DNA of 33,998 bases from Bacillota bacterium (lineage in GTDB: Bacteria; Bacillota; Negativicutes; Sporomusales; CTSoil-080): NCBI GenBank assembly GCA_017889635.1, contig JAGGAC010000024.1, positions 1 to 33,998 of the forward strand. Direction: 5' to 3'. Shown piece after piece: positions 2,069 through 33,998 of the stretch (the first letter of the stretch is position 1; every line of letters begins with the position of its first letter). The notes below the pieces were generated by a model. That model was not told the DNA's origin. It saw nothing but the letters and a program-made list of their open reading frames with translations, and ran no database searches. The position numbers and the translations under genes are program-made.

Positions 2069-2097
2069 TTTACGGAAAAGAGTTTTTGTGGTATAAT
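2069..2097 (+). promoter_or_regulatory. Promoter of ssrA
   Basis: TTTACG (2069-2074) and TATAAT (2092-2097) are 17 bases apart, and TGG before the -10 box gives an extended -10 element. The promoter starts directly after the smpB stop codon. Transcription would begin near 2104, leaving a 5' leader of about 50 bases to be processed off tmRNA. Confidence 0.65.
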
Positions 2098-2157
2098 ACT
2101 TTTTACATTGCTATTATATTGTTCGCGTGTATCGTTATAGTAGCGTTTTGTTAATAT

Positions 2158-3233: not shown

Positions 3234-3245
3234 CGGAAAAACGGA

Positions 3246-7430: not shown

Positions 7431-7459
7431 GTTAGCGCCTTAGGGCGTTTAATTTTTTT
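7431..7459 (+). terminator. Intrinsic terminator inside the cluster
   Basis: The core stem CGCC (7436-7439) / GGCG (7444-7447) with loop TTAG is extended by G-U and A-T pairs and one mismatch, and runs into seven T (7453-7459). It lies 60 bases after the chemoreceptor stop and 57 before the fatty acyl-AMP ligase start. Without antitermination it would separate the first three genes from the synthetase genes. Confidence 0.65.
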
Positions 7460-7516: not shown

Positions 7517-9301
7517 ATGAAGATGGCAGTTGCTGACTCGCTGGAAAAAATCTTATCACTGGTGGAACTTCTACGATATCGGGCGTTTAAGCATCCGGAA
7601 AAACGGGTATACACTTTTTTGTCTAGCGGAGAAACTGAAGGAAGTCACTTGTCTTATAAGGAGCTTGACATACGGGCTAGAGCTGTCGCAGCCTTTTTGC
7701 AAAGTCTTAATTTAGAGGGCGAACGTGCGCTGCTTATTTATCCAGCGGGATTAGATTATATTATCGCTTTCATGGGCTGCCTGTATGCTGGTGTTGTTGC
7801 TGTACCTGCTTATCCGCCAAGGCTTAACCGCAATTTATTAAGGCTCAAGAATGTTGTAAATGATTCAAACGCTAAGGCCGTGCTGACTACCTCGACAATT
7901 ATTTCCAAGTTTGAACCGTTGATTGCTCAAACATCCGGGTTATCAGAAGTGGAATGGCTAATGACTGATGAAATCAATACGGCAATAGCAGGTCGATGGA
8001 AGGAGCCGGAAATAACGAAAGACACACTGGCGTTTTTGCAGTACACTTCTGGCTCGGTAGGAGTACCTAAGGGCGTGATGGTAAGTCACGGCAATGTTCT
8101 TAATAACGAAAAGCTGATACAGACGGCTTTTGAGCTTGATGAAGAAAGTACTATTGTTGGATGGCTGCCTATTTATCACGATATGGGATTGATGGGTAAT
8201 GTACTGCAAGCTCTTTATCTTGGAAGTACCTATGTTTTTATGTCGCCAGTAGATTTTTTGCAAAAGCCATACCGGTGGCTGAAAGCAATTTCCGACTATA
8301 AGGGAGTTTTGAGCGGTGCTCCGAATTTTGCTTATGAGTTGTGTATTAATAAGATTACCGAAGCGCAAAAGGAAACACTGAATCTAGTTTCCTGGAAAAA
8401 AGCCTTCAATGGAGCAGAACCTGTCCGCTATGAGACAATTGAGCGGTTTGCGGCAACGTTTGCGTCGGTTGGTTTTCGCCAAGAAGCGGCGTACCCTTGT
8501 TATGGTATGGCTGAAACAACGTTAATGGTTTCTGGCGGTGCCGTCAGTGAACTTCCTGCATATGGAAAGTTCAGTTCAGAAGAGCTTGAAAAAAATGTTG
8601 TTTCTATCGGTAGTAGCGAAAAAGATCGAATGTTAGTAAGTTGCGGACACGCTTGGCTGGATCATAAGCTTGTTATTGCTGATCCTAAGAAATTATGCCG
8701 TTGCTCGGCTGATAGAGTAGGGGAGATATGGGTTTCTGGGTCTAGCGTTGCTCAAGGGTATTGGAATAAGCCTGAGATTACTGAGAGCACTTTCAGGGCT
8801 TACCTTGCCGACAGCGGAGAAGGTCCCTTTTTGAGGACTGGCGATCTCGGGTTTATTCATGAGGGGGAGCTTTTTGTTACCGGTCGTCTTAAAGATCTTA
8901 TAATTATACGGGGCACAAACCATTACCCCCAAGATATAGAGTTAACTGTGGAAAAATGCCATCAAGCTATTCGACCAGGCGGCTGTGCCGCGTTTTCTAT
9001 GGAAATTGACGGCGAAGAACGTCTGGGTATTGTTGCTGAAATTGAACGGCAATACCGCCCACGCGGGAACAAGAGTCAAGTTAGTAGCAATGAAAATGGC
9101 CAGAACAAAGTTCTGGAAGAAATTTATTCTGCAATTAAGCAGGCTGTATTTACAAATCATGAGCTTCAGGCTGATAACATATTGCTGCTTAAGCCAGGAA
9201 GTATTCCCAAAACTTCAAGCGGCAAAATTCAACGTCATGCCTGTCGCAATGGCTTATTAGACGGAACGCTGAGTGCTGAAAGGGGACTAACGAATGGGTA
9301 A
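7517..9301 (+). CDS. Fatty acyl-AMP ligase (FAAL) loading the lipid starter
   Basis: A 594-aa adenylate-forming enzyme of the FAAL class. It activates a fatty acid as acyl-AMP and passes it to an ACP, here presumably the ACP at the start of the next protein. Visible signatures are YTSGSVGVPKGVMVSH (about 175-190), the FAAL-type LPIYHDMGLMGN, CYGMAETTL, RTGDLGF and the C-terminal PKTSSGKIQRH, with the catalytic lysine at 570. The ATG follows a good GGAGG (7505-7509). The last eight bases overlap the PKS-NRPS start at 9294, indicating coupled translation and a shared pathway. The preferred chain length cannot be read from sequence. Confidence 0.92.
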   Translation: MKMAVADSLEKILSLVELLRYRAFKHPEKRVYTFLSSGETEGSHLSYKELDIRARAVAAFLQSLNLEGERALLIYPAGLDYIIAFMGCLYAGVVAVPAYPPRLNRNLLRLKNVVNDSNAKAVLTTSTIISKFEPLIAQTSGLSEVEWLMTDEINTAIAGRWKEPEITKDTLAFLQYTSGSVGVPKGVMVSHGNVLNNEKLIQTAFELDEESTIVGWLPIYHDMGLMGNVLQALYLGSTYVFMSPVDFLQKPYRWLKAISDYKGVLSGAPNFAYELCINKITEAQKETLNLVSWKKAFNGAEPVRYETIERFAATFASVGFRQEAAYPCYGMAETTLMVSGGAVSELPAYGKFSSEELEKNVVSIGSSEKDRMLVSCGHAWLDHKLVIADPKKLCRCSADRVGEIWVSGSSVAQGYWNKPEITESTFRAYLADSGEGPFLRTGDLGFIHEGELFVTGRLKDLIIIRGTNHYPQDIELTVEKCHQAIRPGGCAAFSMEIDGEERLGIVAEIERQYRPRGNKSQVSSNENGQNKVLEEIYSAIKQAVFTNHELQADNILLLKPGSIPKTSSGKIQRHACRNGLLDGTLSAERGLTNG

Positions 9302-12300
9302 AGGACAGCGCGGAGCAATGAGAGAAGTCAATATGAAAGCCACATGTGCCAAGGATACAAAAACAAGTAATGAAATTGAGAAATGGCTAAGGTTACGGTT
9401 AGCTGAACGGTTAAAGGTGGAACCAAGCAAGATTGATATTTGCGAACCTTTATATAATTACGGGCTAGATTCATCCTCAGCGGTCACTATTACTGGGGAA
9501 ATGGGAGAATGGCTAGGCCAGGATATTTCTCCAACCTTGGTATGGGATTACCCTACTATTGAGGATATTACCAGATTTTTAACTTTAGGTACCGGAGATT
9601 CTGCGATTAAAAATGCGGTAAGTCAGAATAGTACGGCAGAGCCGATTGCGATTATCGGTATTGGCTGCCGTTTTCCCGGTGCTGAAGGACCGGAAGCTTT
9701 CTGGAGTTTGCTAAAAAATAACATCGATGTAATCACCGAGACCCCGATTCAACGTCGTGTTCAGGGAAAAAATGCTAGTTGGGGCGGGTATCTTAATAAT
9801 ATTGATGAATTTGACGCCCGATTCTTCGGTATTTCACCGCGGGAAGCTGCTGAGATGGATCCACAGCAACGTTTATTGCTGGAAGTATCATGGGAGGCAT
9901 TGGAAGATGCCGGACAGATTCCTGAGCGCTTAGTTGGTCAGCCTGTAGGCGTATTTATTGGTATTTCCGGTTACGATTATGGGGCGATGTTAAGAAACTT
10001 TTCGGATACAGATATTTACGCTGCTACCGGTAATGCTCTGAGTATCGCTGCCAACCGTATTTCCTATTTATTTAATTTTCAAGGGCCTAGTTTGGCAATT
10101 GATACTGCGTGCTCATCCTCTTTGGTAGCAGTACATCTGGCTTGCCAAAGCTTGCGAAATGGGGAATCAAAGCTTGCTCTGGTTGGCGGGGTCAATCTTT
10201 TGCTATCACCGGATGTTACGGCGGCATTTGATAAGGCCGGCATGTTGTCGTCTGATGGCAGATGCAAGACTTTTTCCGCAGAAGCAAACGGCTATGTTAG
10301 AGGCGAGGGGGCGGGAGTTGTGGTGCTCAAGCCATTATCTAAGGCGCTTCATGACGGGGATTCGATTTATGCATTAATTCCAGGCAGTGCTGTTAATCAA
10401 GACGGACGTAGTAACGGGTTGACAGCTCCAAACGGCCCCGCTCAAGAAGCAGTACTGCGGGAAGCATACCAACGAGCCGGTGTATCTCCTGGTGAAATTC
10501 AGTATGTTGAGGCTCATGGAACAGGCACTTCGCTGGGTGATCCTATTGAAGCCAAAGCATTAGGACGGGTACTTGCTGAAGATAGGTTGCCGCAGAATCG
10601 TTGCTTGATTGGTTCAGTTAAGACCAATATTGGGCACTTGGAAGCTGCTGCGGGGATGGCGGGGTTGATTAAAGTTGCTTTGGCTCTGAAGCATCGTGAA
10701 ATTCCAGCAAGCCTTCATTTTGATAAACCAAATCCATATATTCCTTTTGAGAAATTGCCTTTATGTGTACAAACAGAAACTGGACCATGGCCGAATATGT
10801 CTTCTTCACTGCTGGCCGGGGTAAGTTCCTTTGGGTTTGGCGGAACTAATGCTCATGTGGTTTTGGAAGGTTTTCAGGCTAGTTCTTTAAAAAAACACAG
10901 TATGACCAGTTATTTCCCGCGAGCGGAGCACCTCTTCGCTATTTCAGCAGTGGATCAGAAAGCTTTGCGTGAATTGGCGCAGTCCTATCGTGATTATATG
11001 AGCAGGTCGGACAGTAATATATCAATAAAGGATATATGTTATACTGCCGGAAATCGTCGGAAACACCATGATTATCGTATGGCGATGGTTGTACGTTCCA
11101 GACAAGAGATGGTTGAATACCTAGATAATTACCTTAATGGTGAAGCGATGCCTGCTTATCAACTCGGACAGAGGACTCACGGCAATTCTTCCAAGGTGGT
11201 TTTCGTTTTTTCTGGGCAAGGGTCTCAATGGTGGGCAATGGGACGAGAACTTTTCCAAGAGGAACAGGTATTTAGAGAAATTATTGAAGAATGTGATGAA
11301 TTATTTCGTTGCCATGTGGATTGGTCATTGATTACTGAATTAACAGCAGAAAAATCAGAGAGTCGTTTGGATCAAACGGAAGTTGCTCAACCGGTTCTCT
11401 TTGCAGTGCAAGTAGCTTTGGCCAAGTTGTGGATGTTATGGGGTATTCAGCCGGCAGCCGTTGTCGGTCATAGTATGGGTGAATTGGCAGCGGGGTATAT
11501 TGCCGGAGCTTTGAGTCTTTCTGATGCGGTTCGGGTCATTTTCCATCGCAGCAGACTTATGCAGAGAACGACTGGCCAAGGAAAAACAGTGGCGGTTGAG
11601 CTTGCTTGGGATGAGGCCGAATTATTGCTTGCTGGGTATGAAGATAAAATTTCTATTGCCTGTTATAATGGGCCAACATCACTGGTTTTATCAGGCGAAC
11701 CTGCTGCTATGAATGAAATTATGGCAAAGTTGGAGCAAATGAACGTATTTTGCAAGGCGTTGCCTGTAGACTATGCTTTTCATAGTTATCAAATGGAGCC
11801 GTTAAAGGATGAATTAACAGCATCTCTAAAGGGGCTGCAGTCAGAAGTTGCTGTGCTTCCTATTTACTCAACGGTTACAGGAAAGGTTATAAATGGCCAG
11901 CAACTTAACTCAGCTTACTGGGTAAAAAATCTCCGAGAACCGGTACTTTTTGCTACAGCGGTGGAGCATTTGGTGGAAGATGATTACAATGCATTTTTGG
12001 AGATAAGCCCGCATCCTGTACTCGCAGGTGCGGTTAGGCAAAGCTTAAACAAGCTGGGAAAAGAGGGTATCATACTGCCCAGTTTGCGCAGGCAAGAACC
12101 AGAGCGAGCTTGCCTGCTAAAGTCTTTGGGAGGTCTTTATACAAAAGGCTATCAAGTAAACTGGGATGGTCTTTATCCTGAAGGTGGTAAGTGCATTGCT
12201 CTACCGAAATATCCTTGGCAGCGGGAACAATACTGGTTTGAAATGAAAGAGCATAAACCAATTTTTACAGTTGATAAGTTTAATGTTTCTGATAAAATTG

Positions 12301-15300
12301 ACCGTTGGTTATATAAGGTGGAGTGGAAGCCTAAAGAGTTAAGGACATATGAAGAGCAGGCTTATGAACGTCGGGCTCAAGGAACTTGGTTAGTTTTTGC
12401 CCAACGAGATGGTATTGGCGAGTTGGCAGCCCAACGTTTGGTAAAACAGGGCGAAAAGGCAATTGTGGTTTATCCAGGAGAAGCCTTCGAGTGTTTAGCA
12501 GAAGGCGTGTTTAGTATAAGGCCGGATCGCAAGAATCTTGACAGGCTTGTGAACACTGCTTTTGATTCTGACTGGGACGGTTGTCAGGGAATTTTACATA
12601 CATGGGGTATTGGCTCGGGGGATAATGACAAGATAATTCAAGCTGACTTGGAAAAAAGTCAGACTATGGGTTGTCGGCATGTCCTTGAGCTAATTCAGGG
12701 TATTAAGGAATCTAAAAAAGAAGTGATTCGAAACTGGCCGCGTTTATGGATTGTTACTAGGGGAAGTCAAGCTGTTAGTATTGAGGGTGAAATTGTCGAT
12801 TTTACCCAAGCGCCATTATGGGGCTTGGGAAGGACAATTGCGGTTGAAGAACAGGAGCTGTGGGGCGGTTTGGTGGATTTGGATCCCAATATGTTGGATG
12901 AAAATTCCGCCCAAATGTTAGTAGAAGATATACTCGTTTCAAGTGGAGAAGATCAAGTTGCTTATCGACAAGGAACACGCTTTGTAGCCAGATTGAAACA
13001 GCAGAGTCTGGGTGGGGAAAAAGATCGTTCTATTGGGTGGCAGACAAACGGCACGTATTTGATAACCGGTGGACTCGGCGATTTAGGTTTAACGGTTGCC
13101 AAATGGATGGTGAAGCAAGGTGCCAGAAGACTGATTTTGTTGGGGAGAAGCAAGTTGCCGCCGCGTAGTGCCTGGGATAAAGTTTGTGAGACCAAAGATC
13201 ATTTGGCCAATAAAATCGATACTATTAAAGAGTTGGAAGCAATGGGAGCCAATATTCATTTAGCCGCAGTCGACGTAGCAGATGCAGAGCAAATTGAGAC
13301 TTTTCTTACAAAATTCCAGGGAGAAAGTTGGCCGCCGATAAGAGGCGTTGTTCATGCTGCCGGGATTGTGGATAACCAATTATTGGCGACATGTAACCCA
13401 GATGCTTTTTATCAAGTCTTAAGACCTAAAGTTGAGGGGGCTTGGTTGCTCCACCAATTATTGAAGGATGTCCCTTTGGACTTCTTTATCTTATTCTCGT
13501 CAAACTCAGCGTTGCTTAGTTCTCCACGCTTGGGCAGTTATGCGGCGGCAAACGCTTTCTTGGATTCTTTGGCACATTATCGGCGTAGTGTTGGATTGCC
13601 TGCGTTAAGCATTAACTGGGGGCCCTGGGCTGAAATCGGTATGGCGGCGCGGTTTGATATATTGTCGTCGACTACCGGCATGGGTATTAGCTCAATATCA
13701 CCAGAGCAAGGACTAGAAATGCTAGGATTTTTGATTGGTAAGGATATAACCCAGGTTGCAGTTATGGAGATAGATTGGGTGCGCTGGAAGATGGTTAGCC
13801 AGCAGGATGGGAAAACCGGGTTGTTGGCGGATTTATTGCAGGAAGAAGGTAATTTGGTCAAAGCTATCGGCAATGTCAGCGATCAAGACACCTCTATTCG
13901 CCAGGCACTTATAGCCGCTAACAAAAGTGAGCGCTATAAACTTTTGGAAAAGTATCTTTGCGATCAGGTTGCACAGGTGCTACGGCTAGCTAATTCCAAA
14001 CTTGATGTCAGTGTATCGTTAACCAGTTTAGGGCTTGATTCCATAATGGCCGTCGAGTTAAAGAACAGAATTGAAAAAGCGCTGGATATAATTGTTCCGA
14101 TGGTAAATTTTTTACAAGGACCAAGTGTTACAGAGTTAGCTGCTCAAATTCAAACGCTGTTGACGTTAGATTCTGAAATTGCGGTTATTCCTATAGCTCC
14201 TAAGCAGGAAGTTTATCCAGTATCATCGGCGCAAAAACGAATGTTTATTCTAAATCAGTTCGAAGTAAATGATACTTCCTACAATAATTCTGTGGCCTTT
14301 ATGATAGAAGGCGCTCTGGATATACCGCGCTTTGAGAATGTGATTAAATCGCTCATTCAACGGCATGAAACATTACGTACTTCTTTTGAAATTATTGACG
14401 GGGAAACTGTACAAAGAATTCATGAGTCGATTGAGTTTGCAATCGACTTTATTCATGGGGCTGAAAGAGATATACCTAATATTATACAAGAATTTGTGCA
14501 GCCCTTTGATTTAAGCAAAGCTCCGCTCTTTAGAGTCGGGCTGGTCGAATTGACTAAAACAAAATATATGGTGGTGTTCGACATGCACCATATCATATCC
14601 GATGGCGTGACAGCAGCTATTTTTATAAAAGAGTTGGCAAGCCTCTATGAAGGCCTGGAATTACCGGATCTGAGAATACAGTACAAGGATTTTGCTATTT
14701 GGCAAAATAGTGTGTTTCAGACTGAAGATTTTAGGAAACAGGAAGAATACTGGCTGCAAAATTTTGTGGGAGAACTGCCGGTATTGAATATGCCGAGCGA
14801 TTATCCAAGGCCGCCGGTTAGAAGCTTCGAGGGAGCGGTGCAACAGTTTTCCCTGGATGAAAAATTGACGGGAGAACTAAACAAACTTTCCAGGGAAAAT
14901 GGTACGACTCTGTATATGGTGCTCTTGGCAGCGTATAATGTCGTATTGGCTAAATATACCGGTCAGGAAGATATTGTTGTCGGCTCGCCGATTGCGGGAC
15001 GCCAGTACGCTGATTTGCATAATATTATTGGTGTATTTATAAATACGCTGGCGATGCGCAACTTTCCGGAAAAAGATAAAAGCTTCCTGGAATTTTTGCA
15101 AAAAGTCAAAGAGAATGCTCTTTCAGCCTATGAACATCAGGATTACCCATTCGAAGAACTAGTTGATAAACTGGATATACCAAGAGATTTAAGCCGGAAT
15201 CCATTGTTTGATACCATGTTTGCCTTACAAAGCGTGGATATGGCGGAACTGACAATTGGCAGCTTGAGATTTTCACGTTATGAATTCTACAATAGAATTG

Positions 15301-27300: not shown

Positions 27301-27998
27301 GAAAGCTAAACAAAATTGCTGGTCAAACTGACGCCACGATATATATGGTGCTGCTTGCGGCCTATAACATCTTATTGGCGAAACACACTGGTCAGGAGGA
27401 CATTGTTGTGGGGACGCCAATTGCTGGCAGACAGCATGCGGATTTAGAAAACCTTGTCGGTATGTTCGTTAATACATTGGCGATGCGGAATTACCCTTCT
27501 GGTAACAAAAGCTTTAAGGCGTTTTTGCACGAGATTAAAGAGAATGCTCTCCTGGCCTATGAAAATCAGGACTATCAATTTGAAGAATTGGTAGAGAAAC
27601 TGGACATAGCGCGAGATTTAGGTCGAAACCCGCTGTTTGATACTATGTTTGTACTGCAAAACATGGATATGACATCAATGGAAATGGGTGGTTTAACGTT
27701 AGTGCCGGTTGAAATTGATAATAAAACAGCTAAAGTAGATTTAACTTTATATGCGGTAGAAGGAAATAATGGTTTAGAACTTATGCTGGAGTATTGTACT
27801 AAGCTGTTTACAGAAGAAACTGCTGCACGATTATTAAAGGACTATTGCAAAATACTCAAAGAGATTACGGACAACGATGACATATTAATAAAAATGATTA
27901 TGTTAGAAAAACAGTATAGTAAGCGCCGGGGAATTAAGCAGAGTTTAAATTTTAATCTGGCGGCTCAGTTTGGCGAAGCCAAAGCTGGCTCTAAGTAA
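9294..27998 (+). CDS. Hybrid PKS-NRPS megasynthase, one PKS and four NRPS modules
   Basis: A single 6234-aa protein. Domains in order by approximate residue: ACP 24-97, KS 117-525, AT 634-958, KR about 1010-1460, ACP 1545-1625, four C-A-PCP modules (1640-2666, 2677-3702, 3720-4736, 4753-5766), a complete C domain (5783-6200) and a short basic tail. It should extend a FAAL-supplied acyl chain by one malonyl-type unit, reduce it to a 3-hydroxyacyl group, add four amino acids, and condense the chain with the residue held by the next protein. There is no DH, ER, epimerase or thioesterase domain. The ATG overlaps the FAAL stop, with AAGGGG before it. No frame interruption occurs over 18.7 kb. The terminal C domain implies docking with the next synthetase. 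Confidence 0.95.
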   Translation: MGKGQRGAMREVNMKATCAKDTKTSNEIEKWLRLRLAERLKVEPSKIDICEPLYNYGLDSSSAVTITGEMGEWLGQDISPTLVWDYPTIEDITRFLTLGTGDSAIKNAVSQNSTAEPIAIIGIGCRFPGAEGPEAFWSLLKNNIDVITETPIQRRVQGKNASWGGYLNNIDEFDARFFGISPREAAEMDPQQRLLLEVSWEALEDAGQIPERLVGQPVGVFIGISGYDYGAMLRNFSDTDIYAATGNALSIAANRISYLFNFQGPSLAIDTACSSSLVAVHLACQSLRNGESKLALVGGVNLLLSPDVTAAFDKAGMLSSDGRCKTFSAEANGYVRGEGAGVVVLKPLSKALHDGDSIYALIPGSAVNQDGRSNGLTAPNGPAQEAVLREAYQRAGVSPGEIQYVEAHGTGTSLGDPIEAKALGRVLAEDRLPQNRCLIGSVKTNIGHLEAAAGMAGLIKVALALKHREIPASLHFDKPNPYIPFEKLPLCVQTETGPWPNMSSSLLAGVSSFGFGGTNAHVVLEGFQASSLKKHSMTSYFPRAEHLFAISAVDQKALRELAQSYRDYMSRSDSNISIKDICYTAGNRRKHHDYRMAMVVRSRQEMVEYLDNYLNGEAMPAYQLGQRTHGNSSKVVFVFSGQGSQWWAMGRELFQEEQVFREIIEECDELFRCHVDWSLITELTAEKSESRLDQTEVAQPVLFAVQVALAKLWMLWGIQPAAVVGHSMGELAAGYIAGALSLSDAVRVIFHRSRLMQRTTGQGKTVAVELAWDEAELLLAGYEDKISIACYNGPTSLVLSGEPAAMNEIMAKLEQMNVFCKALPVDYAFHSYQMEPLKDELTASLKGLQSEVAVLPIYSTVTGKVINGQQLNSAYWVKNLREPVLFATAVEHLVEDDYNAFLEISPHPVLAGAVRQSLNKLGKEGIILPSLRRQEPERACLLKSLGGLYTKGYQVNWDGLYPEGGKCIALPKYPWQREQYWFEMKEHKPIFTVDKFNVSDKIDRWLYKVEWKPKELRTYEEQAYERRAQGTWLVFAQRDGIGELAAQRLVKQGEKAIVVYPGEAFECLAEGVFSIRPDRKNLDRLVNTAFDSDWDGCQGILHTWGIGSGDNDKIIQADLEKSQTMGCRHVLELIQGIKESKKEVIRNWPRLWIVTRGSQAVSIEGEIVDFTQAPLWGLGRTIAVEEQELWGGLVDLDPNMLDENSAQMLVEDILVSSGEDQVAYRQGTRFVARLKQQSLGGEKDRSIGWQTNGTYLITGGLGDLGLTVAKWMVKQGARRLILLGRSKLPPRSAWDKVCETKDHLANKIDTIKELEAMGANIHLAAVDVADAEQIETFLTKFQGESWPPIRGVVHAAGIVDNQLLATCNPDAFYQVLRPKVEGAWLLHQLLKDVPLDFFILFSSNSALLSSPRLGSYAAANAFLDSLAHYRRSVGLPALSINWGPWAEIGMAARFDILSSTTGMGISSISPEQGLEMLGFLIGKDITQVAVMEIDWVRWKMVSQQDGKTGLLADLLQEEGNLVKAIGNVSDQDTSIRQALIAANKSERYKLLEKYLCDQVAQVLRLANSKLDVSVSLTSLGLDSIMAVELKNRIEKALDIIVPMVNFLQGPSVTELAAQIQTLLTLDSEIAVIPIAPKQEVYPVSSAQKRMFILNQFEVNDTSYNNSVAFMIEGALDIPRFENVIKSLIQRHETLRTSFEIIDGETVQRIHESIEFAIDFIHGAERDIPNIIQEFVQPFDLSKAPLFRVGLVELTKTKYMVVFDMHHIISDGVTAAIFIKELASLYEGLELPDLRIQYKDFAIWQNSVFQTEDFRKQEEYWLQNFVGELPVLNMPSDYPRPPVRSFEGAVQQFSLDEKLTGELNKLSRENGTTLYMVLLAAYNVVLAKYTGQEDIVVGSPIAGRQYADLHNIIGVFINTLAMRNFPEKDKSFLEFLQKVKENALSAYEHQDYPFEELVDKLDIPRDLSRNPLFDTMFALQSVDMAELTIGSLRFSRYEFYNRIAKFDLTVEAIERNNRLDFTLEYDTKLFKQETVQRLKGHLETVLKAIVEQPEIKLADIELVSEAEKQQLLFDYNNTKTDYPKDKTIQEIFEDQVAKNPDNIAIVFKEQKLTYKELNNKANKLALALRNKGVKAGRIVGMMVERSPEMIIAIMGILKAGGACLPIDPEYPEERISYILEDSRTNILLTQRHLVQTIAFAGDIIAVDAQELYQGEAENPIQQNTAQDLAYIIYTSGSTGKPKGNLTMHHNVVRVVKETNYIKVTDHDVLLQLSNYAFDGSVFDIYGALLNGAKLVLLDKETVLDMGCLAKVIEQEKVTAFFITTALFNTLVDVNIECLKNIRKVLFGGEQVSVRHVQKAFEYLGSGRIVHVYGPTETTVFATYYEVNHSDPGDLSVPIGAPIANTVIYILDQGGNLQPVGVPGELCIAGDGLARGYLNRPELTAEKFVANPFAPGERMYRTGDLAKWLPDGNIEFLGRIDHQVKIRGFRIELGEIEAEILKHPDIKETCVMAKDDPTGQKYLCAYVVAEDAFDARELKAYLRNPLPDYMVPTSFVQLEKLPLTPNGKVDRKVLPEPEGRMSGASEYVAPRNEAEEKLTRIWQEVLGVERIGIEDNFFELGGQSLKAITLVAKIHKTFGVEVPLQEVFKAQTIKALSQIIQNVAETDYIAIEPVAEAEYYPVSSAQKRMFILNQFENGDTAYNMPAAFKVEGAFDKKRFEEAWEKLVQRHEALRTSFELSNGEPVQRVHEAVAFSIGQLKGAEKDIPSLFQAFVHPFDLSKAPLFRINLVGIAENQFVMFFDMHHIISDGVSMEILVKELTRLYKGEELPELRVQYKDFSAWQNSLFTTERFKQQEKYWLQTFDGELPVLSLPNDYPRPQVRSFEGDQYEFALGEEVTEKLNKLVGQTGVTMYMVLLAAYNVILSKYSGQEDVIIGTPIAGRPHADLENVVGMFVNTLAMRNYPAGDKKFTDFLQEVKKNALSAYAHQDYQFEELVDKLDIPRDLSRNPLFSTLFTLQNMDIGLLEIDSLKFSAYELDNNTAKFDLTLRAIERNNRLNFTLGYYSRLFKKETVEQFGQHFVNVLTSIVEQPEVRLAEIALLTEDERNRILVDLNNTNIVYPNKTIKELFELQVKRNPDSIAVTFVNQHLTYRELNYRANQFARVLRNKGVKPNSIIGLMAKRSLEMIVGIMGILKAGGAYLPIDPEYGAERIAYMLENSQSEIVLTQNDVIYKVPKNIVIIDFADVSIGCEDGTNLDTLNQPEDLAYVIYTSGTTGQPKGVMIENCNVVNLVYGLQDCIYNKYVSNLNVALLSPYVFDASIKQIFPALLSGHNLCIVPEDIRFDRSGLLNFYQKTKTDISDGTPAHIRVLNSICREGECLNVKEFLIGGEALSGALVGEFCKNFKNSKINITNVYGPTECCDIATLYKVDCDVANSGDIVPIGNRLPNVRIYILGKDLEVLPFNAVGEVYISGKGVGRGYINNLGLTAEKFVGNPFIIGERMYRTGDLGRQLPDGTIEFFGRVDHQVKIRGFRIELGEIEAKLLEHKEIKETIVVAREEVSGNKYLCAYIVANGELSAKELREHLGKTLPEYMIPSYFLQLEKLPLTLNGKIDRKALPKPEGRINTSAEYIAPRNEAEEKLAQIWQDVLGAEKVGIEDNFFELGGHSLKAINLVAKIHKAFGVEIPLLGVFKAQTIKELMEMIAGAAETDYAAIEPIAKAEYYPVSSAQKRMFILNQFKASDTTYNMPAVFKVEGKLDKQRFENAWKKLIERHETLRTSFVVIEGEPVQKVHDGEIQFTMDVIQGNEENIPGIVKAFVRPFDLGKAPLLRVGLVEVAETEHMVLFDMHHIISDGVSMRILVKELTRLYEGQELAELRIQYKDFSAWQNGVFKTEAFKKQEEYWLKTFNGEIPALNLPSDYSRPTVRNFAGDRLSFTVGEELTGKLNDLAGQNSATMYMVLLAAYNVMLAKYSGQEDIVIGSPIAGRAHADLEGIIGMFVNTLAMRNFPEKDKSFRAFLEEVKENALSAYEHQDYQFEELVDKLDIPRDLSRNPLFDTMFVLQNMDTIALEFKGLRFSSCEIDSKIAKFDLTLEAVERNNHLEFTLEYDTKLFKQKTVERLGRHFVNVLASIVEQPEIKLADIDIVSEAEKRQLLIDFNDTKMAYPKDKTIQELFEEQVAENPDHIAVVLGEQQLTYKELDAKANQLARVLRNKGVASPCIVGILAERSPELITGIMGILKAGGTYLPIDPEYPEDRISYMLADSESKILLAPRHLADKVVFSGEIIHLDDPSLYIGDSSRLFLERNPRDLAYVIYTSGSTGKPKGVEIEHTSLVNLVSWHRRIYNIKAEDRATLLAGQAFDAAVWEIWPYLTSGAGLYIPDNRTRAFTTGLIKWLKDNKITISFMPTPMAEALMNEEWPQEMALRALLTGGDKLHCRPQEMAFMLVNHYGPTESTVVATWGTVNPDEPGDVLPSIGRPVDNTQIYILDKNNKLQPVGVPGEMCIAGDGLARGYLNRTELTAEKFVVNPLVPGERMYRTGDLAKWLPDGNIEFLGRIDHQVKIRGFRIELGEIEAEILKHPAIKEACVLVKDDVGDQKYLCAYIVAEEALDVRNLKAYLRKPLPDYMVPTSFVQLEKLPLTPNGKIDRKALPEPEGRMSAAEEYMAPRNEAEEKLVRIWQEVLGAKKIGIEDNFFELGGQSLKAITLVAKIHKTFGVEVPLQEVFKAQTIKALSKIIDSLKATDYITIEPVAKAEYYPVSSAQKRMFILNQFENGDTAYNMPAAFKVEGFLDTARFDDCLNNLIQRHETLRTSFELVDGEPVQRVHEAVEFTIDMSKGNEQEISDILKAFVSPFDLSKAPLFRVKLVEIAKNQYVVLFDMHHIISDGVTMGILVEELAKLYEGQELAELRIQYKDFSAWQNNLVTTESFKQHEEYWLKTFAGELPVLSMPSDYQRPPVRSFEGARLEFALGEDVTKKLNKLAGQAGATMYMVLLAAYSVVLSKYSGQEDVIVGSPIAGRPHADLENVVGMFVNTLAMRNYPAGDKRFIEFLQEVKENALSAYAHQDYQFEELVDKLDIPRDLSRNPLFDTLFILQDTDIACLRMGDLNLIMYQFDNKTAKFDLICQAFERNNRLEFTLEYYSKLFKKETVERFGQHFVNVLTSIVDQPEVRLAEIALLAEAERRQILVEFNNTRIVYPNKTIQELFEEQAKKNPEKIAVVYEEYQLTYKELDKKANQLAQILRNSGVRENSIVGILAERSPEMIIGMMGILKAGGAYLPIDTEYPEDRISYMLEDSGTKILLTKKHLADKVLFSGEVIHLDDSDIYSGDGASLFLKHNPHDLAYVIYTSGSTGKPKGVEIEQISLVNLVKWHQRVYNITVNDRATLLAGQAFDASVWEIWPYLTAGAGLYIPDSETRASTTRLIKWLKDNLINISFMPTPMAEMLLAEVWPPQMALRALLTGGDKLHHQTQNLPFTLVNHYGPTESTVVATAGAVSLDESEDRLPSIGRPVDNTKIYIVDRNNNLQPVGVAGELCIAGDGLARGYLNRPELTAEKFVANPFDSGERMYRTGDLARWLGDGNIEFLGRIDQQVKIRGFRIELGEIEAGLLTYPAVKEAIVIVKDDLTNSKYLCAYIVAEDKLTLAELRDHLAPMLPEYMLPTSFVQLDRLPLTPNGKIDRKALPQPERISAGKEYVAPRNEAEEKLVWIWQEVLGVEKVGIEDNFFELGGHSLKAITLAARIHKEFGIEVPLQELFKAQTIKNLIVFIEGTTKVNYAAIKPVPEQDYYPVSSAQKRMFVLNQFEDSQTAYNMPAVLKIEGVLDKERFEAAWKKLIQRHETLRTSFGLWGGEPVQRVHQEVAFTIDIIQGTEHCIQNIIKAFRRPFDLSKAPLIRVNLVEMDENKHLLLFDMHHIISDGVSIGILVKELASLYEEQNLAEIKIQYKDFAVWQNDIFKTKAFKMKEAYWLKVFEGEIPLLNIPSDYPRPMIRSFEGNRLSFNVGEDLTGKLNKIAGQTDATIYMVLLAAYNILLAKHTGQEDIVVGTPIAGRQHADLENLVGMFVNTLAMRNYPSGNKSFKAFLHEIKENALLAYENQDYQFEELVEKLDIARDLGRNPLFDTMFVLQNMDMTSMEMGGLTLVPVEIDNKTAKVDLTLYAVEGNNGLELMLEYCTKLFTEETAARLLKDYCKILKEITDNDDILIKMIMLEKQYSKRRGIKQSLNFNLAAQFGEAKAGSK
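9363..14165 (+). other. PKS segment: ACP-KS-AT-KR-ACP
   Basis: The first ACP carries the phosphopantetheine site GLDSSSAV at Ser60 and should receive the acyl group from FAAL. The KS is complete: Cys273 in DTACSSS, His408 in VEAHGTGT, His448 in KTNIGHLE. The AT has GHSMGE with Ser727 and YAFHS (His830). HAFH marks malonyl and YASH methylmalonyl specificity, so YAFH is intermediate and I favour malonyl only weakly. The KR has the NADPH loop TGGLGDLG (from residue 1258) and catalytic Tyr1416 and Asn1420 in SYAAAN, so it looks active. HAAGIVDN resembles a B-type KR signature. There is no DH between AT and KR. The second ACP uses Ser1583. The expected product is a two-carbon-extended 3-hydroxyacyl chain. 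Confidence 0.85.
14211..17290 (+). other. NRPS module 1 (C-A-PCP), predicted Ile
   Basis: The C domain has an intact HHIISDG (His1765 to Gly1771) and accepts the hydroxyacyl chain from the PKS. From the A domain I read the ten-residue specificity code as D-G-F-F-L-G-V-V-F-K. This differs at one position from the known isoleucine code DGFFLGVVYK, so Ile or a close branched residue is expected. The PCP uses LGGQSLK with Ser2622. The code was aligned by eye. Confidence 0.7.
17322..20400 (+). other. NRPS module 2 (C-A-PCP), specificity unassigned
   Basis: The C domain (HHIISDG) is of the ordinary LCL type and the PCP has LGGHSLK with Ser3665. The A domain differs from the other modules: FDASIKQIF at the A4 region, DGTPAH where others have FMPTP, and YGPTECC instead of YGPTETT. 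By eye the code is about D-A-K-G-L-G-V-D-I-K, which I cannot match to a known amino acid. The core ATP-binding motifs (TSGTTGQPKG, TGDL, GRVDHQVKIRG) are intact, so it should be active. Confidence 0.65.
17331..17422 (+). repeat. 92-base perfect repeat, copy 1 (start of module 2 C domain)
   Basis: This block is identical base for base, as read by eye, to 23559-23650. It encodes the first conserved motif of a C domain. The DNA upstream in PCP1 and PCP3 is also very similar, but with scattered mostly silent changes. Confidence 0.8.
20451..23500 (+). other. NRPS module 3 (C-A-PCP), predicted Leu
   Basis: C (HHIISDG), A and PCP (LGGQSLK, Ser4698) are intact. The code reads D-A-W-F-L-G-H-V-V-K, one change from the known leucine code DAWFLGNVVK. 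Its A-PCP end resembles that of module 1 closely at DNA level, while its A-domain core resembles module 4. Confidence 0.65.
23550..26590 (+). other. NRPS module 4 (C-A-PCP), predicted Leu
   Basis: C (HHIISDG), A and PCP (LGGHSLK, Ser5728) are intact. The code reads D-A-W-F-L-G-H-V-V-K, the same as module 3, so a second Leu-like residue is expected. The start of its C domain is identical in DNA over 92 bases to the start of the module 2 C domain. Confidence 0.65.
23559..23650 (+). repeat. 92-base perfect repeat, copy 2 (start of module 4 C domain)
   Basis: Identical to 17331-17422. Perfect identity including silent positions points to recent duplication or gene conversion between modules. Confidence 0.8.
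26640..27998 (+). other. Terminal C domain and C-terminal tail
   Basis: A complete condensation domain (SSAQKRMFVLNQ start, HHIISDG catalytic motif) ends the 6234-aa protein with no A domain after it. It is followed by about 40 residues rich in basic and small residues (KQYSKRRG region onward), a plausible docking tail. It should condense the module 4 peptide with Ser on the next protein. Confidence 0.75.
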
Positions 27999-28030
27999 TA
28001 GGCATAAAGAATTGCAGGGAGGGAAGTTAA

Positions 28031-31000
28031 GTGTTGTTAGATAAACATTCTCAAAATATTATTATAGCAAGTGGGGAATATCAGGAAGAAAGAGAATATT
28101 GGCTGGATAAATTAAGTGGTGAAATATATTTTCACGGTTTTCCCGGCAATAATGATCAACAAGGATATACAAAAGCAACATTTAAAGGTACATTATCAAG
28201 TGACGTGTTTAATAAAATACTTCACTTAAGTAATAACTCTGAATATGCCGCTTACGTGATTTTGTTATCCGGGATAAAATATCTGTTGTGTCGCTACAAT
28301 GATGCAAGTGATGTAATAGTAGGTATGCCTGTATTTAAGCAAGCCCCAGATGATTTATATTTAAATAGTATGTTACCACTTCGAAGCTCTATTGATATGG
28401 AGGAACCATTTAGCAATTTTGTAATGAGAATTAAAGATATTATGATTGAAGCGGATAGTTATCAAAACTATCCGCTTGACCAAATTTATGAGCAGTTGAA
28501 TTTATGTTCTGCTGGTGACGGGGGCGTAGCTTATAAAACGGTTGTTTTGATGGAAAACATTCACGAGGGAAAATTTATCAGTGATTTAGAAATAGATACA
28601 GTATTTTCATTCTTGCTGACAAAAGACTCTATAGAAGTTGTGGTGGAATACAATGCTAATATGTATACAGAACAAATAATTAAGCAGGTAGTTAAGTACC
28701 TGTTTAATTATTTGGGGGAAGTGACACAAAATCCGCAAATTAAGTTATCAGAAATAGAAATTTTGTCTGAGGCTGAAAAGAAAGAACTGCTTTTTAATTT
28801 TAATAATACGGACGCTGTTTATCCCAAAGATCAGACAATACATAAAGTTTTTGAGGCACAGGTGGAAAGAAGTCCAGATAACATCGCCGTTGTCTTTGCT
28901 GATCAGCGTCTTACTTATCAGGAACTAAACAACAAAGCTAACCAATTGGCAAGAGTGTTAAGGAGTAAGGGCGTACAAGCCAACAGTATTGTGGGCATAG
29001 TGGTGGAACGTTCATTGGAAATGATTATTGGGATTATGGGAATCGTGAAAGCGGGAGGGGCATATTTACCGATAGCGCCTGATTATCCAAAAGAAAGAAT
29101 AGACTATATGCTGGAAGACAGCGGGACAAAAATTATCTTAACGCAGAAACGCTTTCTTGATCAGCTATCATCATTTACGGGTCAGATACTTGATCTAGAA
29201 GCAGCAAGCTTATACTCTGGCGATTGTTCGAATCTGAGGATAGAGAATAACTCTCATGATTTGGCCTATGTGATCTATACTTCTGGTTCAACTGGAAAGC
29301 CTAAAGGGGCTATGATCGAACATTACTCTGTTATTAATAGAATAAATTGGATGCAAAATTACTATAGTCTTGAAGAGAAAGACGTCATTTTACAAAAAAC
29401 CCCTTTTACGTTTGATGTATCGGTATGGGAAATTTTTTGGTGGTCGTTTATTGGTGCGAGTGTTTATATGCTAAAACCAGGCGGAGAAAAAGAACCGGGA
29501 GAAATTGTAAGGTCAATAGAGAAAAACAAAATAACAACTATGCATTTTGTTCCTTCAATGCTAACGGTTTTCCTAAATTATATTGATAATCGAATCAACT
29601 TTAATAGTATTGCAAGTCTGAAACAGGTATTTGCCAGCGGTGAAGCGCTGAATCCGGAACATGCCAATAAGTTTAATAAGCTATTTGCCGGGTATGGCGC
29701 CAGGTTGATAAATTTATATGGTCCAACAGAAGCTACTGTTGATGTATCTTATTTTAATTGTACAACAGGAGAAGAGCTTAAGCTTGTACCGATTGGTAAA
29801 CCGATTGATAATATTAAGTTGTACATAGTAAATAGAAACAATAAGCTTCAGCCTGTTGGCGTGGCTGGCGAACTTTGCATTGCGGGAGATGGTTTGGCTA
29901 GAGGATATATAAATAAGCCAGAGTTGACAGCAGAGAAATTTGTGAAAAATCCGTTTCTCTCTGGCGAGCGGATGTATCGTACCGGCGACCTTGTCCGCTG
30001 GCTTCCAGACGGAAATATTGAATTTTTAGGCCGGATTGATTTTCAAGTAAAAATTAGAGGCTTTCGGATAGAACTAGGCGAGATTGAAACCGAGCTATTA
30101 AAGCATCCATTAATAATGGAGACAATAGTCATAGCTAAAGACGGTACCGACGGCGACAAATATCTTTGCGCCTATATTGTGGCGGAACAGGAGGTCACAA
30201 TAGCGGAAATGAGGGCGCATTTATCGCGAAATTTACCTGATTATATGCTGCCATCATATTTTGTTAAGCTGGACAAAATGCCCTTGAATTCAAATGGTAA
30301 AGTAGATAGGAAGGCTCTTCCCGAACCAAATGGTAATATTAATACCGGAGTTGATTATATTGCTCCCAGAAATGAAACGGAAGAGATATTGGCAAAGGTA
30401 TGGCAGACTGTTTTAAAGGCCGAAAGGGTAGGTATTAAAGATAATTTCTTCAGTTTGGGTGGAGATTCAATTAAAGCAATCCAGGTTTTGGCTCGTTTGA
30501 GCCAAAATGGCTTAACTATGGAAATGCGAGATTTATTTAAATATCCAATAATTGAAGATCTGAGCAGTTATGTAACAAGCTCGGATAGGAAAATTGATCA
30601 AGGAATTGTTGAAGGTCCGGTATTGTTCTCACCTATGCAGAGATGGTTATTGGAGCAGAGTTTCGCGGATAAGCATTACTTTAATCAAGCTGTTATGCTT
30701 TATGGAAAACAGGGGTTTGAAGAAAATATTATTAAAAAGGTCTTTTCAAAGATTGTAGAGCACCATGATGTATTACGAATGGTTATTAAGGATGACGAAG
30801 GCAAGATAATTCAGTTTAATCGTGGACTTGAAGAAAAGGTATATTCTTTAGAAACGGTACATTTAATAGACAATGATAATTGTCTGGAAATAATTTCGAA
30901 AGAGGCAGAGCGAATTCAAAAAAGTATCAATCTTAATACTGGTCCTTTGGTTAAATTGGGACTATTTAAGACTAAAGCAGGAGATCACCTGCTGATTGTC

Positions 31001-32017
31001 ATTCATCACTTGGTTGTTGACGGGGTATCCTGGAGAGTAATTCTTCAGGATCTTTTTAGTGGGTATATTCAGGCATTAAATAATGAAGAAATAAAGTTTG
31101 TGGCCAAGACAAGCTCATTTCGAGAGTGGACGGATGGATTAGCTTGCTATGCCAATAGTAGGGAACTCTTAAGTCAAATAGAATATTGGCTAAATCTTGA
31201 AAGAACAATTGTAAGAACGCTCCCTAAAGACAAAAACTTAATACGCAGATTAAGTGGAGATAATGAGCATATTCAGTTAAAAATGACTAAGGGAGAAACA
31301 GAAAAACTACTGACTAAGGTAAATTCAGCTTATAATACCGAGGTGAACGATATTCTGCTTACCGCACTAGGTCTTACAGTCAAAGAATGGGCTGGAGAAG
31401 AACAGGTACTAATCAACCTGGAAGGACACGGCAGAGAAGGAATAGTGAAAGGTACTGATATATCAAGAACCGTTGGTTGGTTTACCGCTCAGTACCCTGT
31501 TGTGTTAGACATGCGTGGTGAACGGGATCTTGTGTACTGGATAAAATCTGTAAAAGAAAGTATGCGTCAGGTACCAGATAAAGGAACCGGATATGGAATT
31601 CTAAAATATTTCACTTCGCCTGAAAACAAAGAAGGTTTAAGGTTTAATCTGGAGCCGGAAATAAATTTTAATTATCTCGGGCAGTTTGATGAGGATATGA
31701 GTACTGAACTATTTACTATGTCGGATATTCCTACAGGAAAAGCTGTATCACCACTAATGGAAAGTTTGTACACTCTGGATATAAATGGAGTAGTTGCAAA
31801 AGGCAGGTTAACATTGAGTTTCATTTATAATGCTGAGGAGTATAAAAAAAATACCATAATAAAGTTTGCCGAGATTTTCAGGCAAAACTTGACTAATATT
31901 ATCAATCATTGCACCACGATTGATTCTACTGAGATGACACCGAGTGATTTTACTTTGAAAGATATCACGATGGAAGAAATCGAAACTTTTATGGACGCAT
32001 TTAGTGATGTGGAATAA
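28031..32017 (+). CDS. NRPS: half-C, A (Ser), PCP, epimerase
   Basis: A 1328-aa synthetase. Residues 1-247 match only the C-terminal lobe of a condensation domain: EYWLDKLSGE, SDVIVGMPV and QNYPLDQIYEQL are recognisable, but there is no HHxxxDG. The A domain (about 267-767) has a code read as D-V-W-H-F-S-L-V-D-K, the known serine code of EntF. The PCP (772-847) has LGGDSIKA with Ser813, the form typical before an epimerase. The E domain (about 860-1295) has HHLVVDG (His992, His993, Asp997), EGHGRE and NYLGQFD, so the product residue should be D-Ser. The start is GTG at 28031 with AGGGAGGGAA before it, 32 bases after the previous gene. The acidic C-terminal end (EEIETFMDAFSDVE) may dock to the next protein. 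Confidence 0.93.
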   Translation: MLLDKHSQNIIIASGEYQEEREYWLDKLSGEIYFHGFPGNNDQQGYTKATFKGTLSSDVFNKILHLSNNSEYAAYVILLSGIKYLLCRYNDASDVIVGMPVFKQAPDDLYLNSMLPLRSSIDMEEPFSNFVMRIKDIMIEADSYQNYPLDQIYEQLNLCSAGDGGVAYKTVVLMENIHEGKFISDLEIDTVFSFLLTKDSIEVVVEYNANMYTEQIIKQVVKYLFNYLGEVTQNPQIKLSEIEILSEAEKKELLFNFNNTDAVYPKDQTIHKVFEAQVERSPDNIAVVFADQRLTYQELNNKANQLARVLRSKGVQANSIVGIVVERSLEMIIGIMGIVKAGGAYLPIAPDYPKERIDYMLEDSGTKIILTQKRFLDQLSSFTGQILDLEAASLYSGDCSNLRIENNSHDLAYVIYTSGSTGKPKGAMIEHYSVINRINWMQNYYSLEEKDVILQKTPFTFDVSVWEIFWWSFIGASVYMLKPGGEKEPGEIVRSIEKNKITTMHFVPSMLTVFLNYIDNRINFNSIASLKQVFASGEALNPEHANKFNKLFAGYGARLINLYGPTEATVDVSYFNCTTGEELKLVPIGKPIDNIKLYIVNRNNKLQPVGVAGELCIAGDGLARGYINKPELTAEKFVKNPFLSGERMYRTGDLVRWLPDGNIEFLGRIDFQVKIRGFRIELGEIETELLKHPLIMETIVIAKDGTDGDKYLCAYIVAEQEVTIAEMRAHLSRNLPDYMLPSYFVKLDKMPLNSNGKVDRKALPEPNGNINTGVDYIAPRNETEEILAKVWQTVLKAERVGIKDNFFSLGGDSIKAIQVLARLSQNGLTMEMRDLFKYPIIEDLSSYVTSSDRKIDQGIVEGPVLFSPMQRWLLEQSFADKHYFNQAVMLYGKQGFEENIIKKVFSKIVEHHDVLRMVIKDDEGKIIQFNRGLEEKVYSLETVHLIDNDNCLEIISKEAERIQKSINLNTGPLVKLGLFKTKAGDHLLIVIHHLVVDGVSWRVILQDLFSGYIQALNNEEIKFVAKTSSFREWTDGLACYANSRELLSQIEYWLNLERTIVRTLPKDKNLIRRLSGDNEHIQLKMTKGETEKLLTKVNSAYNTEVNDILLTALGLTVKEWAGEEQVLINLEGHGREGIVKGTDISRTVGWFTAQYPVVLDMRGERDLVYWIKSVKESMRQVPDKGTGYGILKYFTSPENKEGLRFNLEPEINFNYLGQFDEDMSTELFTMSDIPTGKAVSPLMESLYTLDINGVVAKGRLTLSFIYNAEEYKKNTIIKFAEIFRQNLTNIINHCTTIDSTEMTPSDFTLKDITMEEIETFMDAFSDVE

Positions 32018-32075
32018 AGATGACGAGTTATAACAGGCTGTTAGTAAGAACTAAGTGGGCTGGGAGGAGATTTGT

Positions 32076-33998
32076 ATGAGTAATGAAAAGAAAAAAGATA
32101 ATAAAATAAAAGATATATATTCGTTATCTCCCATGCAGGAAGGTATGTTATATTATTCGCTGTTGGACAATGCTTCGAATGCGTATTTTGAGCAGAGTCT
32201 TTTATCAATAGAAAGTAGTTTGAACATTAAGTATCTTGAAGACAGCTTTAACAAGCTTATTGAACGCTATGACATATTACGGACTGTATTTGTGCATGAA
32301 AAAGTAGAAAGGCCAGTCCAGGTCGTTATGAAAGCGCGCAAGGCCCATATTCAATTTGAAAATATTGAGCATTTGACGGAAGACGATAAGAAAAAATTTG
32401 TTGAAGATTTTAAACAGAAAGATAGGCAGAGGGGGTTCAACTTAAGTAAAGATCTATTGATGCGGATTAGTGTAATTAAGACGAATCGTGAGTCATATAA
32501 ATTAATTTGGAGTTTTCACCATATCATCATGGATGGTTGGTGTATGGCAATTATACGTCAGGAATTCTTAGAGATATATAATTCTTTGGAAGAGAACAGA
32601 ACGCCTAATTTAGGAAAAGTATTTCCTTATAGTGACTATATTAAGTGGCTTACTCGGCAAAATCGGGAAGATGCTGCTTTATATTGGCAAAATTATTTAG
32701 GAGATTACTCCGAGCGGGCTTTGATTTTACCGAATAAAACTATATCAGCGCCCGGAAACTATAAAGTAGCTGAGGTAGCTTTTCCGATAAGCGACAACAC
32801 GAAAAAAAGGCTTGAGATTATTGCAAGAAAGAATAATGTAACCCTTAACACTATTGTTCAATCAGCATGGGGAATAGTATTGCAGCGATACAACAATAGC
32901 AATGATGTTGTATTTGGTGCCGTCGTTTCAGGTCGACCGCATGAGATAACGGGGATTGAAAATATGGTGGGACTATTTATTAACACTTTGCCTGTAAGAA
33001 TAAAGTGCGATAATGATGAAACGTTTTCTAAAGTGATAAATAAGGTACAGAATGTTGCTGTAGAGTCTGAACGGTACAGTTATTATCCGCTTGCGGAAAT
33101 ACAGGCAGGGACAAGTTTAAAGGGGGCTTTAGTTGATCATATCGTTGTTTTTGAGAACTATCCTGTAGAAGAAGCCTTGGTGGCTAATAATACCAGGATT
33201 ACTATTGGTGGCAGTGAAGCTTATGAGCAGACAAACTATAATCTTAACGTAATTATTATTTTGGGAAAAAATTTAACTGTTAAATTTAACTATAATTCAT
33301 TGGTGTATGACGAAAGTATTATTAAGAGAATAGGGGAGCATTTTCAATCAGTTATTAGCTGTATAGTCGAAAATCCAGATATTTTGGTAAGCAACATCGG
33401 TATACTCACTGAAGAAGAACGCAGAAAACTATTGTCTGGTTTCAACAATACGAAAGCGGATTATCAAAAGGATAAGACCGTACAGGAACTTTTTGAAACA
33501 GCAGCAGTTAGGAATCCCGAAAATATTGCTGTAGCCTATGGCGAGCAGCGACTTACTTATAAAGAACTTAACAGCAAAGCCAATCAGCTGGCACGAGTAT
33601 TACGAAACAAAGGCGTAAAATCCGCCAGCATTGTAGGTATCCTAGCTGAACGGTCGCCGGAGCTGATTATCGGAATATTGGGCATATTGAAAGCCGGAGG
33701 AACCTATTTGCCGATTGATCCGGAGTATCCAGAAGATAGAATCGGCTATATGTTGAAAGATAGTAGCAGTAGAGTTTTATTAACCCAGCGGCACTTAAAT
33801 GGTAGAACAGGCTTCTCAGGAGTGACCATTGAGTTAGATGACTCTGGTCTGTATACAGACGATGATTCTAACCTCTCTTTGGCCTGTAATCCAAAGAACC
33901 TAGCCTATGTGATTTATACATCCGGCTCGACCGGTAAACCTAAAGGGGTGGAGATTGAGCAGACCAGTCTGGTTAATCTTGTAAGCTGGCACCAACGC
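32076..33998 (+). CDS. NRPS starting with a DCL-type C domain (partial)
   Basis: The frame opens at ATG 32076 after GGGAGGAG (32062-32069) and stays open for 641 codons to the window end. Residues about 12-440 form a C domain with SPMQEGMLYYS at its start and HHIIMDGW (His148, His149, Asp153). This is the DCL style that accepts a donor peptide ending in a D-residue, which agrees with the epimerase ending the previous protein. An A domain begins near residue 475 and is cut just after TSGSTGKPKG, before its specificity residues. Its visible part resembles the two Leu-like A domains (EIEQTSLVNLVSWHQR), so a Leu-like residue is only a guess. The 58-base gap and same direction indicate one operon. 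Confidence 0.92.
   Translation, partial: MSNEKKKDNKIKDIYSLSPMQEGMLYYSLLDNASNAYFEQSLLSIESSLNIKYLEDSFNKLIERYDILRTVFVHEKVERPVQVVMKARKAHIQFENIEHLTEDDKKKFVEDFKQKDRQRGFNLSKDLLMRISVIKTNRESYKLIWSFHHIIMDGWCMAIIRQEFLEIYNSLEENRTPNLGKVFPYSDYIKWLTRQNREDAALYWQNYLGDYSERALILPNKTISAPGNYKVAEVAFPISDNTKKRLEIIARKNNVTLNTIVQSAWGIVLQRYNNSNDVVFGAVVSGRPHEITGIENMVGLFINTLPVRIKCDNDETFSKVINKVQNVAVESERYSYYPLAEIQAGTSLKGALVDHIVVFENYPVEEALVANNTRITIGGSEAYEQTNYNLNVIIILGKNLTVKFNYNSLVYDESIIKRIGEHFQSVISCIVENPDILVSNIGILTEEERRKLLSGFNNTKADYQKDKTVQELFETAAVRNPENIAVAYGEQRLTYKELNSKANQLARVLRNKGVKSASIVGILAERSPELIIGILGILKAGGTYLPIDPEYPEDRIGYMLKDSSSRVLLTQRHLNGRTGFSGVTIELDDSGLYTDDDSNLSLACNPKNLAYVIYTSGSTGKPKGVEIEQTSLVNLVSWHQR

Follow-up and report, generated by a model that had tools for sequence, protein, structure and literature searches.

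A conserved hybrid PKS-NRPS assembly line of diderm Bacillota, predicted to make a lipo-octapeptide, in a composite gene cluster

Gene content and domain organization of the locus

The window analyzed here, 33,998 nucleotides long, is the whole of contig JAGGAC010000024.1 (C109) of a Bacillota bacterium of the Negativicutes (assembly GCA_017889635.1, hereafter G000). It harbors a gene coding for a fatty acyl-AMP ligase (FAAL; 7517-9301, PF00501), predicted to load a starter fatty acid onto a first acyl carrier protein (ACP1), followed by three large genes in the same, forward direction that code for a hybrid polyketide synthase-nonribosomal peptide synthetase (PKS-NRPS). The Pfam domain order is FAAL; ACP-KS-AT-KR-ACP-(C-A-T)x4-C; C-lobe stub-A-T-E; and C-A, the last cut at the contig end (KS, ketosynthase; AT, acyltransferase; KR, ketoreductase; C, condensation; A, adenylation; T, thiolation; E, epimerization). 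An earlier note on this DNA had listed these domains, the stub apart, in this order, and all of them are present far above chance, with E-values of 3e-92 for the KS, 9e-88 for the AT, 6e-66 for the KR, about 1e-123 to 1e-142 for the C domains and about 1e-44 (the truncated one) to 1e-94 for the A domains. Its start at position 9294 is right for the megasynthase, but the FAAL is a separate gene that begins earlier. We consider it likely that roughly two thirds of a hybrid PKS-NRPS line lie in the window, the host being a lipopolysaccharide-making member of the Bacillota; the genome harbors LpxC, and an outer-membrane efflux protein is encoded on contig C103, which together indicate a diderm host.

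The first subunit (9294-27998, 6234 aa) starts with ACP1 (9369-9593, PF00550, in two stretches), a KS with the active-site motifs DTACSSS, EAHGTGT and NIGH (9639-10898), an AT with the motifs GHSMGE and YAFH whose extender unit is ambiguous (11199-12263), a KR made of a structural half and a catalytic half (12384-13793, PF08659) and ACP2 (13914-14168). No aminotransferase family is present among the 13 Pfam families found in 9294-14201, so the statement that a KR stands where iturin-type lines have an aminotransferase is correct as anatomy. Four C-A-T modules follow (14202-17288, 17319-20417, 20442-23516 and 23541-26606), and the subunit ends in the C domain of module 5, with an intact HHIISDG motif (26634-27893). 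The second subunit (28031-32017, 1328 aa) had been described as a plain A-T-E protein; these three domains are present (A-T of module 5, 28841-30574; E, 30617-31966, which exceeds the TIGR01720 cut-off and falls in the clade of E domains in our tree), but they are preceded by a stub corresponding to the C-terminal half of a C domain and the C-A linker (28055-28840). This stub covers positions 186-456 of the 456 of PF00668 and lacks the HHxxxDG motif. The third subunit (32055-33998) starts with a C domain of the D-to-L type and the first half of the sixth A domain (A6).

The stub is not peculiar to this cluster. It is kept in all four complete clusters described below and in bacillomycin D, where the N-terminus of BamB is such a stub (31% identical), and the next subunit of a B. 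amyloliquefaciens plasmid copy also starts with one. The conservation of the C-lobe stub where subunits are split, here as in bacillomycin D, raises a directly testable structural question on split modules.

Reconstruction of the complete assembly line

The earlier note had the line ending at position 33998, but this is the end of the contig, within A6. The window shares its last 99 bases (33900-33998) exactly with the final 99 of contig C27; at the opposite end of C27, its first 99 bases match the start of C103 read in reverse. In both cases base 100 is the first mismatch. When the genome was searched with the DNA of the window end, high identity (97%) was found in the window and C27 only, other copies reaching at most 85%. 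Judging from these overlaps, the break is a collapsed A-domain repeat and, as there are two ways into it and two ways out, the sole linear path runs from the window through the repeat to C27, and through the repeat again to C103. C27 codes for T-C-A-T-C-A(half), and C103 begins with T and a thioesterase (TE) domain. Three related genomes carry the line on unbroken DNA. In G073 (one contig at the locus) and G314 the order is that of this path, and the open frames give subunits of 6242/6215, 1335/1343 and 3374/3365 residues; G290 has the same gene set with rearranged modules and a further E domain. The contig path, together with these copies, indicates that the complete line comprises eight modules and a TE in three subunits, rather than the five or six residues proposed from the window.

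In G000 the halves of A6 and A8 that were read share 97.7% identity, whereas the two domains are 57.2% identical in G073 and 51.4% in G314. We infer that A8 of G000 was replaced by a copy of A6, an event that would turn residue 8 from Ile-like to Leu-like and would also account for the break in the assembly.

Adenylation codes and predicted peptide

Codes are given as nine pocket positions plus the fixed Lys, and the residue names (Ile, Leu, Ser, Gln-like) follow the published code table. Modules 1 to 5 of G000 read DGFFLGVVFK (Ile-like), DAKDLGVDIK (unassigned, perhaps Glu-like), DAWFLGHVVK (Leu-like), DAWFLGHVVK again and DVWHFSLVDK (Ser), and module 7 reads DARNFGLIDK. These codes agree with the Ile-X-Leu-Leu-D-Ser series suggested earlier. 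A basic residue for module 2 was also considered and has no basis. A tree of 58 C-type domains, which carries a program warning on long branches, unites all nine C domains located behind an E domain in a single clade (97/98); the E domains, the stubs and the first C domain of a second assembly line (C0; 100/99) each group apart. The D configuration of Ser is thus supported by the E domain itself and by the post-E grouping of the C domain after it. In G073 and G314 the eight codes are Ile-like, DAKDLGVDVK, Ile-like, DAWFLGHVVK, DVWHFSLVDK, DAWFLGHVVK, DAWQFGQIDK and Ile-like; in G290 they are Ile-like, DAWFLGHVVK, DAWFLGHVVK, DAKDLGVDVK, DVWDFALVYK, DAWFLGHVVK, DAWQFGQVDK and Ile-like. The peptide of G000 is predicted, with good but not full confidence, as Ile-X-Leu-Leu-D-Ser-Leu?-(Gln-like)-Leu?.

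Predicted starter unit and release

The ACP-KS-AT-KR-ACP head fits the 3-hydroxyacyl starter predicted earlier from one reductive PKS extension. The FAAL, whose solved relatives include the FAALs 3kxw, FadD32, FadD23 and FadD28, would activate a fatty acid and load it onto ACP1, and the KS, AT and KR would then carry out one extension and a keto reduction to leave a 3-hydroxyacyl (or 2-methyl-3-hydroxyacyl) chain on ACP2. The KS motifs are intact, and the KR carries a YAAANAFLD box with no A-type Trp seen. Malonyl-specific ATs have the form HAFH and methylmalonyl-specific ones YASH, both visible in the CurL and EryAII alignments, and the YAFH of this AT falls between them. The first C domain (C1), which groups with elongation C domains and away from C0, would pass the acyl chain to the first amino acid, and the eight modules of the three subunits would build the peptide. 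The T-TE on C103 would release it, most likely as a macrolactone formed with the 3-hydroxyl group. Very probably, the product is a new peptide of eight residues with a fatty-acid tail, and the eight modules, with a TE whose best solved relatives by sequence are those of fengycin and surfactin (2cb9, 1jmk), make a lipo-octapeptide lactone its probable form.

A composite cluster with a second assembly line

Directly after the TE gene, G000, G073 and G314 carry genes coding for a C-domain protein that we call PapA-like (a label of our own), an NRPS of the order C-A-T-E-C-A-T-R (R, putative reductase), a DUF362 protein, the phosphopantetheinyl transferase (PPTase) Sfp and an ABC exporter; in G290 all the genes of this second half are present in another order. 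The LoaP-like and type II thioesterase genes described below, the NRPS that begins with a starter-like C and ends in the putative reductase, DUF362, Sfp and the exporter recur in all four complete copies, and the codes of the second line, DAWL[FI]GAVI and DAWFLGHVV, in five of five. Its C0 has its best solved matches in RzmA starter C structures (7c1k, 7c1h), with a TycC C domain close behind. For this starter-like C-A-T-E-C-A-T-reductase line we predict an N-acyl-D-X-Leu aldehyde or alcohol as the product, the PPTase and exporter being shared. The DUF362 and ferredoxin-like protein (L010 4487-5749, minus strand), whose nearest NCBIfam model is the Npun_F2552 family (below cut-off), accompanies the reductase line in every copy read.

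A fifth genome, G318, harbors the LoaP-like, type II thioesterase, PapA-like, reductase NRPS, DUF362, Sfp (in pieces) and exporter genes, whereas no FAAL, PKS or lipopeptide NRPS is present on the 60 kb scanned of its 63-kb contig and no head match was found in it in the class search. The second line can therefore stand alone, and the lipopeptide line is, from its gene content, one separable half of a composite cluster. The PapA-like protein (L010 14606-15868, minus strand; 19.2 bits to PF00668, below cut-off, and no HHxxxDG match) is present in 5 of 380 genomes of the class, namely the four with a complete lipopeptide line and G318; G002, a genome 65% complete in which the contig ends inside module 1, has the head and no PapA match. 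An unrooted tree of eight concatenated proteins places G000 and G318 on one side (100%), with 78.3% identity between them. A loss of the lipopeptide line in G318 fits these data best, gain being the alternative. A deletion scar was sought in G318 by a comparison confined to the leader, and was not retained: G318 against the gap between the receptor and FAAL genes of G000 scored 64 (shuffle maximum 52), and the other four comparisons scored 31-42, one of them (G073) above its shuffles.

Upstream genes and possible transcriptional control

Ahead of the FAAL gene lie, on the forward strand, a gene for a LoaP-like NusG paralog, a probable antiterminator of the operon (4250-4789, PF02357), found in all six related clusters read; a type II thioesterase with a presumed proofreading role (4786-5589, PF00975, 3.5e-47; six of six clusters); and a methyl-accepting chemotaxis-type receptor inside the cluster (5670-7370, PF00015), at the same place in G002, G073 and G290. 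A scan identified an intrinsic terminator (7434-7449), followed by a T run, immediately ahead of the gene with which the assembly line begins. All six clusters have an equivalent hairpin and T run, with paired changes, at the corresponding place, which in G318 is before the PapA-like gene. The leader terminator together with the LoaP-like gene upstream suggests control by antitermination, by analogy with the processive antitermination described for the difficidin and macrolactin operons (PMC12691694).

Relationship to known systems

By sequence, the FAAL and KS of the head group with cyanobacterial types. After a metagenome-assembled Bacillota genome, CTSoil_082 (L013, 80%, a contig that matches G002), the best 80 FAAL loci, of which more exist, are mostly cyanobacterial at 52-58%, and a quick tree places the FAAL among a cyanobacterial and planctomycete set. 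The KS is up to 67% identical to cyanobacterial ones and, again in a quick tree, joins six of them (0.966). Cyanobacterial lipopeptide clusters of the desmamide and hectochlorin type make a beta-hydroxyacyl starter by FAAL and KS-AT-KR, followed by NRPS and TE (PMC11837247). Our line shares with them the FAAL, ACP-KS-AT-KR-ACP, C-A-T modules, a cyclizing-type TE and the nearest KS and FAAL sequences, but has no methyltransferase or second PKS module, resides in a diderm Bacillota host and is followed by a reductase-ended second line.

The earlier note had compared the cluster with iturin. The broad logic is indeed that of the bacillomycin D/iturin cluster (bamDABC), with a FAAL-ACP-KS head fused to an NRPS, an ACP followed by C-A-T modules and a first subunit ending in a full C domain before a stub-A-T-E subunit, as at BamA/BamB, and the identity of the NRPS C domains to those of Bam reaches 51%. 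Replacement of the aminotransferase by a KR within an iturin-family cluster would explain these likenesses. However, BamA is only 27% (FAAL) and 46% (KS) identical to our head and lies outside both head clades, which largely rules out a common descent of the head and leaves the subunit split as the part of the comparison that stands. Moreover, the AT is here in cis whereas bamD is a separate gene coding for an in trans malonyl transacylase, and there are eight modules against the seven of the iturin family, besides the extra reductase line. We thus regard a direct iturin relationship as highly improbable.

In surfactin and fengycin a starter C domain loads a ready 3-hydroxyacyl group. Acyl-CoA is given as the substrate of the surfactin starter C domain in PMC7804268. 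The line described here resembles them in its predicted Leu-rich 3-hydroxyacyl peptide and TE family, but itself makes the 3-hydroxy group, and its C1 is of the elongation rather than the starter type. NRPS lines with a starter C and a terminal reductase can make acyl-dipeptide aldehydes. The mutanoclumpins arise from a FAAL-started cluster with an R domain that yields two co-acting products (PMC12403116). Reductive release, predicted for our second line, links these systems to our cluster, which differs in having two separate lines per cluster, one TE-ended and one R-ended. No description of the cluster and no isolated product was found in the open-access literature, in line with the earlier note not recognizing the assembly line. 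It is an orphan, conserved variant of the FAAL-PKS-NRPS lipopeptide type, unusual in its pairing with a reductase line and in the recent A-domain copy.

Alternative products and points of uncertainty

Ring closure is beyond what sequence can show, and the lipopeptide might be released linear by hydrolysis or be closed on the side chain of Ser, a residue coded at position 5 in three of the four clusters. We find this the less probable outcome, as the TE is nearest to two cyclizing TEs and the line spends a KR on making the 3-hydroxyl. G290 keeps the PKS, KR and TE yet has no module with the Ser code DVWHFSLVDK, so that the 3-hydroxyl is the nucleophile common to all four. The two lines might also serve a single conjugated product, in which the PapA-like protein may be what attaches the reductase-line aldehyde to the lipopeptide, since in three of the four complete clusters the TE gene is immediately followed by the PapA-like gene and the second line, and linkage is kept in the fourth. 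This appears unlikely given that G318 has the second line, the PapA-like gene, DUF362 and the exporter without the lipopeptide line, and that a TE belongs to the lipopeptide line itself, just as a starter-like C and a reductase belong to the second. As a tentative model, the cluster may instead be a modular two-product operon. Its stable core (LoaP-like, type II thioesterase, acyl-dipeptide aldehyde line, DUF362, PPTase and exporter) would carry, at one defined place after the common leader terminator, an optional lipo-octadepsipeptide line of 34 kb; both products would be released by one antitermination switch, and the lipopeptide, active on membranes, could act together with its partner aldehyde, which might be a protease inhibitor.

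Several observations weigh against the lactone of eight residues under antitermination that we favor. The module order differs in G290, which also has a frame break in its PKS; the A6 and A8 pockets of G000 lie within the unassembled repeat of about 1 kb and hence were not read, and G073 and G314 are Leu-like at 6 and Ile-like at 8. Codes 2 and 7 have no trusted assignment, six such codes being printed in no open-access paper found by text search. The AT reads GHSMGE/YAFH, ambiguous between malonyl and methylmalonyl, in all five copies, and the KR motif VDN is atypical (VDD or VAD in relatives). The putative reductase covers all 371 positions of TIGR01746 at 196.8 bits, below the cut-off of 213.35 (NCBIfam). 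LoaP is the best NCBIfam model of the NusG paralog at 118.1 bits, under its cut-off of 125, the UNCG hairpin of the known LoaP type has no match in the window region and none common to the six clusters, and the receptor gene is missing in G314 (also in G318).

Distribution and minor observations

At E 1e-100 the head has matches in 15 of the 380 genomes of the class. It is whole or nearly so in five, in one piece in G000, G073 and G314 and in two in G002 and G290, the remaining 10 having a KS or KS-AT part only (39-47%). The KR-ACP-C piece was found in 3 of 398 genomes of the phylum, two besides G000, at 34-36%. The assembly line is spread over four families (f1, f2, f8 and f15) of one class. 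Bacillota that are diderm and probably anaerobic have been little studied for natural products, and this conserved line is readable and offers testable residue predictions; its separable pairing with a reductase line and the copying of a whole A domain (A6 onto A8), probably changing residue 8, make good cases for the evolution of such lines.

In relatives, a LytTR-like response regulator, identified by eye from translations, lies upstream of the LoaP-like gene (L013 2093-2842; also G073, G290 and G318), and none is present at that place in the window. In G002 an apparent frame break near 11300 divides the megasynthase copy (L013 8196-16071). An integrative element at the tmRNA gene of the window was considered but is not supported: the 3' end of that gene occurs exactly only once in this genome, with a further match of two mismatches on C64, and has no match in L011. 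Directly before the cluster, the region 1598-3849 contains smpB and then this tmRNA gene (2158-2504, tag ANNEYALAA), followed by a recombinase zinc-ribbon fragment (2651-3202, minus strand) and an MFS transporter fragment (3154-3849).

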